Of a stretch of 37,043 nt of DNA, positions 35,038 through 37,043 are shown piece after piece. Each line of letters opens with the position of its first letter. Within the stretch, counting starts at the first letter, position 1. This stretch comes from Leptolyngbyaceae cyanobacterium C42_A2020_001 (GTDB lineage: Bacteria > Cyanobacteriota > Cyanobacteriia > Leptolyngbyales > Leptolyngbyaceae), in NCBI GenBank assembly GCA_015272515.1, contig JACYLN010000095.1:1-37043 (forward strand). Reading direction: 5' to 3'. A model generated the notes under the pieces. That model did no database searches and was not told the origin of the DNA. It worked only from the letters and a program-made list of their open reading frames with translations. The position numbers and the translations under genes were made by a program.

Positions 35038-35152
35038 TGCACCGGAATAAGCGAGTTTTGGTTGGTCAGGTGCAAAGGTTGTTTATGTCCGGTGATTGCA
35101 AACGTTATGAGGAATATTCCGCGTAGATGCAAACAGGGACACGCTTATAGGC
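35038..35152 (-). pseudogene. 3' remnant (copy A) of a molybdopterin oxidoreductase gene and its downstream region
   Basis: Read leftwards, 35152-35105 encodes AYKRVPVCIYAEYSS followed by TAA, the C-terminal tail of the gene whose end enters the window at 37043. The downstream flank keeps TGCACCGGAA (35038-35047) and TGCAAAGGTT (35071-35080) at exactly the same spacing as copy C at 36950 and 36983, though the bases between have diverged. Nothing of the gene upstream of AYK is left. It is too short to function. Confidence 0.75.
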
Positions 35153-35169
35153 AGTAGTCAGATCGTTGC

Positions 35170-35233
35170 TCTTGTAGGGTGCGTTCCTATTGCAATTTCT
35201 CTGAATTCATCGATCGCGTGTTTGGGAACGCAC
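35170..35233. repeat. Dispersed hairpin repeat, copy 2
   Basis: The arms GTGCGTTCC (35179-35187) and GGAACGCAC (35225-35233) are exact inverses. The outer phrase CTCTTGTAGGGTG matches TCTTGTATGGTG of copy 1 at 18171, with compensatory changes in the arms. The loop, about 37 nt, is not conserved and holds CGATCG. Confidence 0.55.
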
Positions 35234-35362
35234 TATGCTCACGCCTTTCCTGAAACCAGCGATCGCAGTCTCGCAACACCCTGCACTATGGTCGAAAGGG
35301 CGATCAGGATATTGGAAAGGGCAGGTGATGTTTCCTGGAACCGGGTGCTTTCGATTGTGCGT

Positions 35363-35413
35363 CGCGATGCCAAGAGCAATAACGGATACTGGATTGATGC
35401 GTTTCCATATAAT
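35363..35413 (+). repeat. 51-bp direct repeat, right copy
   Basis: This matches 33871-33921 in 46 of 51 positions and reads DAKSNNGYWIDAFPYN in one frame. It continues as NELDR and stops at 35429-35431. It lies at the end of a 69-codon ORF (35222-35431) that I do not regard as an intact gene. Confidence 0.75.
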
Positions 35414-35512
35414 AACGAGTTAGACCGCTGAATCTCGGTTGGGATGCAACTTGAAATTTGTCTGTGTGTTAAGCAGCTATTTTCAACTCCCCTCGTAGTT
35501 TCAATTCAAATC

Positions 35513-35737
35513 ATGAAAGTGATTTATAAAATAACTTATCCCAATGGAAAAATTTATGTGGGTCAAGATTTGACAGATAGTATTAATTATTTTGGAAGTG
35601 CTAACAGTAAATTTTTTGAAAAAGACTTTACGAGAGAACAGAGAAGAGACTTTATGATTAGGAAAGAAATACTTTGGGAGTCAGAAATAGCTTCAAAAGA
35701 GCCTCCTTACAACGCCCAGATCCCAACCGAAAGGTGA
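35513..35737 (+). pseudogene. Truncated GIY-YIG-type nuclease gene
   Basis: 74 aa from ATG 35513. It has the GIY-YIG-like opening [20 protein letters not shown], then [17 protein letters not shown] and [11 protein letters not shown]. After SEIASK the sequence changes to [12 protein letters not shown] and stops. The remaining C-terminal part of such proteins, with more catalytic residues, is missing. The junction is close to the start of the next small gene (35742), suggesting that a cassette joined there. It probably does not encode an active nuclease. Confidence 0.65.
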
Positions 35738-35741
35738 TGCC

Positions 35742-35948
35742 ATGCAAGCCAAACTTCAAGAGCAACTTACTCCTGCTGATGCTGAAGTTATTTTAGGGCG
35801 GTTGCCTGAGCGAATTCGTGCTGCTCTCATTGCGCGTGCTGCCGAGATTGAGTATCCCATTGAAGCTGTGGTTGAGATGGCGATCGCAAGTTTTCTAGAC
35901 ACAGAGGCGTTGGGTTTTGCAGATTGCAAACCAGGGCGAGGTCAGTAG
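35742..35948 (+). CDS. Small hypothetical protein, possible antitoxin-like
   Basis: 68 aa. It is helical and charged, with the phrases TPADAEVILGRLPERIRAAL, ARAAEIEYPIEAVVEMAIASFL and ALGFADCKPGRGQ. I do not recognise a named family. The layout of short helices and its place in a nuclease/toxin-antitoxin region suggest a small DNA-binding or antitoxin-like protein, but no toxin follows. Its ATG is 4 nt after the stop of the truncated GIY-YIG gene. Confidence 0.55.
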   Translation: MQAKLQEQLTPADAEVILGRLPERIRAALIARAAEIEYPIEAVVEMAIASFLDTEALGFADCKPGRGQ

Positions 35949-36054
35949 TGCTTTGTAGTTGGTGAATCGCACGGTCTAACTTCCGTTGCACACCGACCGT
36001 ATAAAGCCTCTTCGTTGAATTCGAGAGGTTACTAGCGGCGGGTGAACACGATCG
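35949..36054. other. Short gap left of copy B
   Basis: No gene is visible. TGAACACGATCGCTATG at 36043-36059 is identical to 37005-37021 downstream of copy C, so 12 nt of downstream flank were carried with the gene end in copy B. Further left the two sequences do not match. Confidence 0.5.
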
Positions 36055-36299
36055 CTATGGGGAATATTCCGCGTAGATGCAAACCGGGACGCGCTTGTAG
36101 GCGGGGGTGCCACACTGTGGATCGATGGGGCGGCGAAGATCTGGTTGACTTCTGGGTAGAACATCAAGGCTGATCCGGGTCGAATGTCACCATAGATAAT
36201 TTCAACGTTTTCCAGTTTGCCTGCATTGCCCTGCACCGTGACGCGATCGCGTTTTGGCACTTGATCATGAATTACAAACAGCCCCAAACGCTGTCTTGC
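36055..36299 (-). pseudogene. 3' remnant (copy B) of a molybdopterin oxidoreductase gene, frameshifted
   Basis: About 80 codons of the C-terminal dinucleotide-binding domain remain. The first frame reads LGLFVIHDQVPKRDRVTV, AGKLENVEIIYGDIRPGSAL and MFYPEVN. After one base is lost or gained near 36135, the frame PIDPQCGTPAYKRVPVCIYA continues to TAG at 36055. The pattern DIRPGSA-MFYPEVN followed by GTPAYKRVPV is the usual end of FdhF/YdeP-type molybdopterin enzymes. The 5' part is gone. It lies directly left of the toxin-antitoxin pair. Confidence 0.78.
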
Positions 36300-36349
36300 G
36301 ATTGGTTACCTTACAATAGAAGCGAAGCTTTGAGATTGGGTGGTAGGCA

Positions 36350-36625
36350 ATGACCACAGGAAATTCTCCATTAGAAGATACGGAGTCGGCAGTTTTAGTC
36401 TCTGTGGCAGAATTGCAACGTCAACTTGAGGAGTCATTGAAACAGTTATCACCAGAACGATTAAAGGTGGTTGCGGATTTTGCGGCTTATTTAGCAAGTG
36501 CTGAAAGCGAAGCTGCAACTCAAGAACTTTTGGCGATTCCTGGATTACTAGAGCGAGTTAAACAGAATCAGACGACCTCTAAAGCCCAGTACACTAGCTG
36601 GAGAACGCTCCGCGCTGATGTATGA
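36350..36625 (+). CDS. Antitoxin of a RelE/ParE-type toxin-antitoxin pair
   Basis: 91 aa. It has no well-known DNA-binding motif, but the helical core LSPERLKVVADFAAYLASAESEAATQELLAIPGLLERV is typical of cyanobacterial antitoxins next to RelE/ParE toxins. The C-terminus (SWRTLRADV) is the likely toxin-binding tail. Its last 8 nt overlap the toxin start, so translation is coupled. It should autorepress with the toxin; no operator was identified. Confidence 0.8.
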   Translation: MTTGNSPLEDTESAVLVSVAELQRQLEESLKQLSPERLKVVADFAAYLASAESEAATQELLAIPGLLERVKQNQTTSKAQYTSWRTLRADV

Positions 36626-36881
36626 AGTTCTTCTCCACCCCGATGCTCAGAAAATTTATGTCGATGCTGATAAAGCGCTAGCCAAGAAGATTGCTCGATG
36701 TTTGCAGCAGTTGGAGCAAACTCCTCGGTCACACCCTAACATCAAAGCCCTTAAGGGAGATTATGCAGGCTACTATCGCTACCGGATTGGGGACTACAGG
36801 GTGATCTATTCCGTAGACGATGAATTGGTTCAGGTGTTTGTTGTGGCGATCGCCCATCGCAGTGAAGCGTATGAGCCGTAA
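36618..36881 (+). CDS. RelE/ParE family toxin
   Basis: 87 aa with the RelE/ParE fold: MYEVLLHPDAQKIYVDADKA, then the core LKGDYAGYYRYRIGDYRVIYSV and VFVVAIAHRSEAYEP. The basic and tyrosine residues of YYRYRIGDYR line the usual RelE active site, so it is probably a ribosome-dependent mRNA nuclease; a ParE-type gyrase poison is possible. It is intact. The pair sits between two copies of the same gene end (B and C). Confidence 0.88.
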   Translation: MYEVLLHPDAQKIYVDADKALAKKIARCLQQLEQTPRSHPNIKALKGDYAGYYRYRIGDYRVIYSVDDELVQVFVVAIAHRSEAYEP

Positions 36882-37016
36882 AAGCAAGTTGGTAAGTCCG
36901 TCAGTTGGGTGATTGAAGTCCTTTCAGCCACGCCTCATAACAATCGTGCTGCACCGGAACGGCATAACATCATCGGTTTTAATGCAAAGGTTACCTGCCA
37001 TCGCTGAACACGATCG
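36882..37016. other. Downstream flank of copy C with conserved short motifs
   Basis: No gene is present. TGCACCGGAA (36950-36959) and TGCAAAGGTT (36983-36992) match copy A with the same spacing, 33 and 37 nt apart to the next landmark, while the rest differs. Their conservation might reflect a processing or recombination site downstream of the oxidoreductase gene. Confidence 0.5.
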
Positions 37017-37043
37017 CTATGAGGAATATTCCGCGTAGATGCA
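37017..37043 (-). CDS. 3' end of a molybdopterin oxidoreductase gene (copy C, partial)
   Basis: The window ends inside this gene. Eight codons read CIYAEYSS before TAG at 37017-37019, identical in protein to the end of copy A. By comparison with copy B the full gene would be an FdhF/YdeP-like molybdopterin enzyme; most of it lies outside the window. Whether it is complete cannot be seen. Confidence 0.6.
   Translation of the reverse strand, partial: CIYAEYSS

Follow-up and report, generated by a model that had tools for sequence, protein, structure and literature searches.

The 37,043-nucleotide stretch of Leptolyngbyaceae cyanobacterium C42_A2020_001 analysed here (the window) is an entire contig, C49, of a 5.55 Mb genome in 149 contigs (G000). 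Near its right end an island of small genes contains the 3′ end of a molybdopterin oxidoreductase gene three times. We identify this island firmly as a set of integron cassettes, and the palindromes within it as attC sites. The three sites point the same way, and a copy of the oxidoreductase 3′ end follows immediately after each. The order of the events that multiplied the gene end is less firm than this identity. We consider it probable that the island is a cluster of attC sites lacking an integron integrase (CALIN) in which a cassette entered a target beside the gene and duplications followed. The integrase of this genome and the cassettes are of a known kind; what is unusual is that a gene end was copied together with the cassettes, a process whose history is only partly solved.

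attC sites and the integron integrase

A covariance model of attC sites (R1) was trained on 11 aligned sites, namely site A of the window together with sites from this genome and two congeneric relatives. The alignment supports 19 base pairs, 10 of them with compensatory changes (RNAalifold). The model has exactly three matches in the window, and each stops where a gene end begins. Site A (35024-35108, + strand) scores 79.4 bits, is part of the training set, and has an intact GTT crossover and a strong hairpin. Sites B (35975-36058, + strand, 58.0 bits) and C (36936-37020, + strand, 50.4 bits) are outside the training set and carry the triplet GCT; the right end of the 3′ arm of B is of the C type. 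A cluster of this type has at least two attC sites with the conserved two-arm fold; the window has three, at 79, 58 and 50 bits, with B and C independent of the training. When folds were compared with those of shuffled sequences, site A gave z values of −3.5 (+ strand) and −2.7 (− strand) and site C gave −3.4 (− strand) and −0.5 (+ strand), and site B folded no better than shuffles on either strand (−0.6 and −1.3). The imperfect palindrome that precedes the gene ends recurs on contigs C16 and C1 without a gene end. A search of positions 33000-37043 against RNA families gave two matches up to an E-value of 1, both under their gathering scores.

An intact integron integrase (TIGR02249) is encoded on contig C108 of the same genome, with 480-482 bits against a cut-off of 265 over residues 52-364. 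Its open frame has 364 amino acids and, judged by coordinates, the TAG reported for it is the stop codon that closes this frame. Of 14 control genomes, none passed the cut-off. Because the gene sits on C108 and not beside the cassettes, the island is not a complete integron. With 150 candidates scored per genome, so that the counts are lower bounds, attC matches numbered at least 18 in this genome, at least 72 in its complete sister genome (G001) and at least 16 in the other relative (G002); a stricter family-wide run gave 16, 68 and 15, respectively. The sites of G001 form rows, some of them close to the integrase gene (5.49 Mb) and others at 1.65-1.69 Mb. Across the family of 42 genomes the integrase exceeds the curated cut-off in 28, and the attC model, run without the control genomes, matches all 42 (E-value up to 0.001) with 2 to 85 sites per genome.

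The G001 arrays have a repeat of their own. A cassette of about 290 bp starting with TTAGCTGGCTCCGCATC recurs at L045, L046, L047 and L048, once in tandem; after the attC site at L048:14990 only the first ~60 bp of it are shared, and some copies are partly masked by N. A leader found after many G001 attC sites was considered as an instance of the same phenomenon as the gene ends and was rejected, since it is this repeated cassette.

Repeated gene ends and cassette borders

The gene behind the repeated ends encodes a molybdopterin oxidoreductase of the FdhF/YdeP family (TIGR01701, 785 bits; cut-off 582), in agreement with the original prediction, which had also called three copies of its 3′ end. 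These copies are real: the same 56-nt repeat is present at 35076, 36026 and 36988, and a 23-mer of the gene end, searched with up to three mismatches, occurs three times in the genome (two exact, one with one mismatch), always on C49, with no occurrence of the reversed control. All three are read on the − strand. Copy A (35105-35152) reads AYKRVPVCIYAEYSS followed by a stop. Copy B (36055-36253) reads AYKRVPVCIYAEYSP followed by a stop, is one base short of frame and ends in ...GCGTT, and copy C (37017-37043, the contig end) reads CIYAEYSS followed by a stop. The predicted extents of A and C held, and the homology of B, which had been taken to reach 36299, stops at 36253. Copies A and B begin at the attC crossover. 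The stretch common to B and C starts several bases within the attC arm rather than at the crossover, and the repeat is therefore not of the gene alone; the two share TGAACACGATCGCTATG ahead of the gene end.

The body of the oxidoreductase gene opens contig C7 and runs off the first base of that contig. Positions 1-40 of C7 are identical to 36214-36253 of the window, such that copy B matches C7 exactly through ...GCGATCGCGTT and diverges beyond. The sequence linking copy C to C7 was found in copy B alone. For this reason we take copy C as probably the real end of the intact C7 gene, the join being deduced as the contig stops at C, and we infer that the assembly broke at the B/C repeat. Over 179 nt, copy B and the gene end of G001 share 83% identity; B has one base fewer than the sister gene, which makes it a frameshifted fragment.

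A second 3′ gene fragment, D3, is also duplicated. D3a (33866-33921, + strand, ending ..REAKRNNRYWIDAFPYN) is the left flank of unit 1, and D3b (35282-35419, + strand, ending ..NNGYWIDAFPYNNE) is the left flank, of non-attC sequence, of cassette 2. Positions 33870-33921 and 35362-35413 are 90% identical over 52 nt (5/52 differ) and encode the same protein end. The 43-residue piece of D3 had no match in Pfam, NCBIfam or a plasmid collection. Copies A and B of the oxidoreductase end differ at 5 of 48 positions, 4 of which are third codon positions; pooled with D3a/D3b, 8 of 10 differences fall at third positions (binomial p = 0.0034 against one third), and of the remaining two, one occurs in B only, as C agrees with A at that position. 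This bias favours diverged alleles over neutral decay after a single duplication. Judged by these differences, the A/B and D3a/D3b pairs, each about 10% divergent, look like diverged alleles, as had been predicted from the third-position changes, here lying in tandem as units 1 and 2.

When the left flank of cassette 2 is joined to the gene end of copy A, the D3 frame ends in NNEL and a stop, back to back with the ...EYSS and stop of the oxidoreductase. In this reconstructed junction the TGA of D3 abuts the TAA of the oxidoreductase on the opposite strand, with a GTT at the joint, which is what entry at a non-attC, attG-like site would be expected to require. The arrangement suggests an ancestral convergent pair of D3 and the oxidoreductase gene, the junction of which may have taken a cassette.

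The borders of the cassettes were examined with a matrix of cassette starts, which covers 14 bases past the crossover and was trained on 26 distinct starts outside the window. The best + strand position in the whole window is 35420 (12.6 bits), and the best score on the − strand is 11.2. The exact string GTTAGACCGCT is unique in the window, at 35419. D3b terminates where cassette 2 apparently starts, between the G and TT of a GTT (35419/35420), and this left neighbour has no attC match. Cassette 2 thus likely runs from 35420 to attC B (35420-36054, + strand); part of it, 35698-35951, has an 89% identical counterpart in G001, which is followed immediately by an attC site. The GIY-YIG part of cassette 2 differs from the one there and is truncated. 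Cassette 1 possibly runs from 34103 to attC A (34103-35104, + strand). Its probable start, where G is followed by TTAGCTGTCTG, scores 10.7 and ranks fifth on the + strand; of the four positions that score higher, one is within the island and three are not. Cassette 3 (36254-37016, + strand) ends in attC C. The GTT at 36251-36253 was considered as its start and rejected, as the start matrix was unsupportive.

Cassette 1 carries an Mrr-type restriction endonuclease open reading frame (ORF; 34123-35028, Mrr_cat 35.6 bits), which has no DNA match in G001 or G002 among 40 candidates scored per genome. Cassette 2 carries a truncated GIY-YIG-like ORF (35513-35737) and a 68-amino acid ORF (35742-35948). 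The former had been predicted to be a truncated GIY-YIG gene; its last codons do match a GIY-YIG gene in a G001 array (42.7 bits), while the ORF has no Pfam match of its own. It looks like a fusion, the end of which fits the G001-array gene and the first part of which aligns poorly. Cassette 3 carries a DUF2281-like ORF (36350-36625) and a ParE/RelE toxin ORF (36618-36881). Of the RelE/ParE pair originally described as intact, the toxin stands (ParE 53 bits, RelE/StbE 39 bits), and its partner resembles DUF2281 only below the cut-off. This partner gave a weak PADLOC match (E-value 0.0026), the sole match to a defence family among six proteins. The toxin-antitoxin region 36449-36877 is 80% identical to C767:403-831 of G002. 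The Mrr, 68-amino acid and toxin ORFs all lie on the + strand, each upstream of an attC site in the same orientation.

Beyond the island, dispersed repeats at 28493-28656, 30421-30530 and 31755-31925 have several to many copies in the genome, mostly at 80-98% identity. Positions 18285-18611 and 33470-33804 are related small-ORF regions that are also found on C58 and in both relatives.

Origin of the repeated gene end

A relative with a single, empty gene end exists: in G001 the oxidoreductase gene end is single, uninterrupted and without an attC match. Its neighbour there is not D3 but a block corresponding to window positions 19083-30317, inverted, and positions 31263-33402 correspond to sequence beyond the oxidoreductase gene. 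The blocks that flank the G001 gene are thus rearranged here (19083-33402), with the cassettes at the breakpoint. We collected 98 oxidoreductase loci including C7 of this genome. None of the 98 has an attC match in the available sequence; for the 97 loci other than C7, some of which represent one genome counted twice, this sequence extends at least 1 kb downstream in 86 cases and up to 3.9 kb.

These results bear on the proposal of the original prediction that cassettes enter at the end of this gene by homologous or site-specific recombination, leaving one gene end behind each time, and that the gene end is the site of an unrecognised hotspot. The tandem units do place two or three different cassettes next to the same gene end, and the attC sites and the integrase in the genome support site-specific entry beside it. 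The site itself, however, is a recognised one, the integron attC, and the gene end contributes at most the GTT triplet at its stop codon. Ordinary integron cassette entry leaves no gene end behind per event; the extra ends would need separate duplications, of which the last is an apparent homologous exchange. The empty gene end of G001 and the lack of attC matches at 97 other loci argue against a general hotspot, the latter even though every one of the 42 family genomes has matches to the model. Nor are the final residues of the protein conserved; they change from species to species. It is therefore highly improbable that this gene end is the site of a hotspot.

The account that we favour begins with the integrase, acting in trans, which would recombine a circular cassette into the GTT at the convergent junction of D3 and the oxidoreductase gene. 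With entry right at the stop codons, the reading frame of the oxidoreductase would be left whole. Units 1 and 2 would have arisen when a diverged version of this junction, holding another cassette, came to lie in tandem with the first. Unit 3 would be the product of a subsequent duplication, accompanied by gene conversion of gene ends B and C. For the last step we examined the pairing of the attC arms with an arm-pairing matrix. The 5′ arm of B scores 5 with a standard 3′ arm versus 1 with its own, and the 3′ arm of B pairs best with the 5′ arm of C (score 5). From these scores attC B looks like a B/C chimera, and we read B as having formed when gene ends B and C underwent gene conversion or unequal exchange. 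Such an apparently chimeric site would point to homologous exchange for the last duplication. The gene end would accordingly be a passenger that marks where each duplicated target begins, not its own kind of recombination site.

Other explanations address different steps, and they are compatible with one another and with parts of the account above. Plain tandem duplication, in which short repeats led to unequal crossing over or template switching and the attC sites were already there but played no further part, agrees with the apparently chimeric attC B, the joint of which is at TGAAC, with the identity of B and C7 over the 40 comparable bases at the far end, with a GCGATCGC palindrome at the joint of B, and with a dispersed repeat between gene end A and D3b (35168-35266, no strand assigned; 70-74% identity to positions 2508-2603 and 2658-2751 of C100). 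Yet the units carry different cassettes between shared flanks, and the likely start of cassette 2 falls exactly at the D3b border, which indicates that site-specific recombination probably brought in at least one of the cassettes; as an explanation of the island, plain duplication is possible but rather unlikely. A tandem duplication cut by an insertion sequence was provisionally rejected, as no transposase family was found in the seven proteins scanned, other short ORFs lying outside that scan; the dispersed repeat at 35168-35266 also bears on this reading.

The integrase may itself have made the gene-end pieces, by recombining the neighbouring attC site with an internal GTT of the gene, such that a hairpin-less piece of the gene end was inserted between cassettes as a cassette without attC. 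Copy B indeed halts exactly at a GTT (...GCGATCGCG on one side of the break and TT on the other), and the start of both A and B coincides with the attC crossover. Integrases accept secondary sites of the form GTT or GNT (PMC10127599), and GCT fits GNT. On the other hand, the sequence common to B and C already starts several bases within the attC arm (for which a later gene conversion could account), a GTT is expected at about 1 in 64 random junctions by chance, the segment after B lacks a canonical cassette start, and the right end of A cannot be placed. The GCGATCGC palindrome, which is common in cyanobacteria, also lies at the same place as the right end of B. Taken together, we regard this origin as improbable. 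The convergent junction could alternatively have served repeatedly, in this lineage, as a chromosomal cassette target, with different cassettes entering the same GTT in different alleles; tandem joining of these alleles, or gene-end pieces made by the integrase, would then yield an array with a piece of host gene in its repeat unit. We hold this sequence of events to be unlikely.

Several observations weigh against entry at a convergent target followed by duplication. Positions 31937 (12.4) and 13199 (12.3), both outside the island, have start scores nearly equal to that of 35420, and the matrix alone is therefore no proof of a start. Cassette 3 has no recognisable start, with position 36252 scoring −1.5, and its homologue on C767 of G002 has no attC match. 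The crossover triplet in B and C is GCT and not GTT, which fits only the looser GNT given in PMC10127599. The margins for a chimeric attC B are small, as its 3′ arm also scores 4 with the 5′ arm of one G001 site, and the arms of C score only 2 with each other. The count of third-position differences is small. The junction was reconstructed with the flank of copy A; the flank of B itself (CTATGG) gives no D3 stop, and the reconstruction therefore treats the last change in B as later. No D3 homologue was found in 41 other genomes of the family (E-value up to 0.01), and the convergent ancestor is for that reason a reconstruction. Between D3a and 34103 lie 181 bp, so that unit 1 does not reproduce unit 2 cleanly. 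Unit 3 lacks D3, and its left flank resembles those of units 1 and 2 no better than shuffled sequences do. Finally, with the cassettes at a breakpoint, a rearrangement rather than cassette entry could have joined the gene end to them.

Relation to known integron systems

PMC12444791 defines a CALIN as a cluster of attC sites lacking an integron integrase. Like a CALIN, the island has several attC sites that point the same way and close one cassette each, and its integrase is encoded on another contig; it also adjoins a chromosomal gene. It differs in that the end of the chromosomal gene is repeated after each attC site and that two of the three triplets are GCT. The same paper cites Loot et al. 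2024 on attG sites.

Cassettes are reportedly inserted into bacterial genomes outside integrons, at such attG sites. Cassette 2 would resemble an insertion of this kind, as judged from its border, in that it adjoins non-attC DNA at a GTT split after the G; the difference is that the target here is itself seemingly duplicated. PMC12901181 describes attG sites as well as unusual cassettes that carry part of attI instead of attC. These Delta-attI-type cassettes are likewise bordered by a piece of the neighbouring platform; in them the attI piece takes the place of attC, whereas here the host gene end follows a retained attC. Integrase-linked inversions at GTT-like secondary sites, as presented in PMC10127599, share GTT-like breakpoints with this locus, which likewise lies at a rearrangement breakpoint relative to G001; those off-target rearrangements are experimental inversions on a plasmid. 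Chromosomal attC sites of cyanobacteria were used for a model in PMC8352920, and integrons in cyanobacteria were therefore already known. In titles and the openings of abstracts we found no published description of a repeated host gene end in a cassette array.

What appeared to be a new hotspot thus becomes a concrete case of integron cassettes that have settled apart from their integrase in a cyanobacterial family. If the proposed founding event is true, entry at a GTT in a stop codon can seed a new array without harm to the host gene. If the junction did serve repeatedly as a target, this would constitute a route by which a chromosomal array may be founded without attI.

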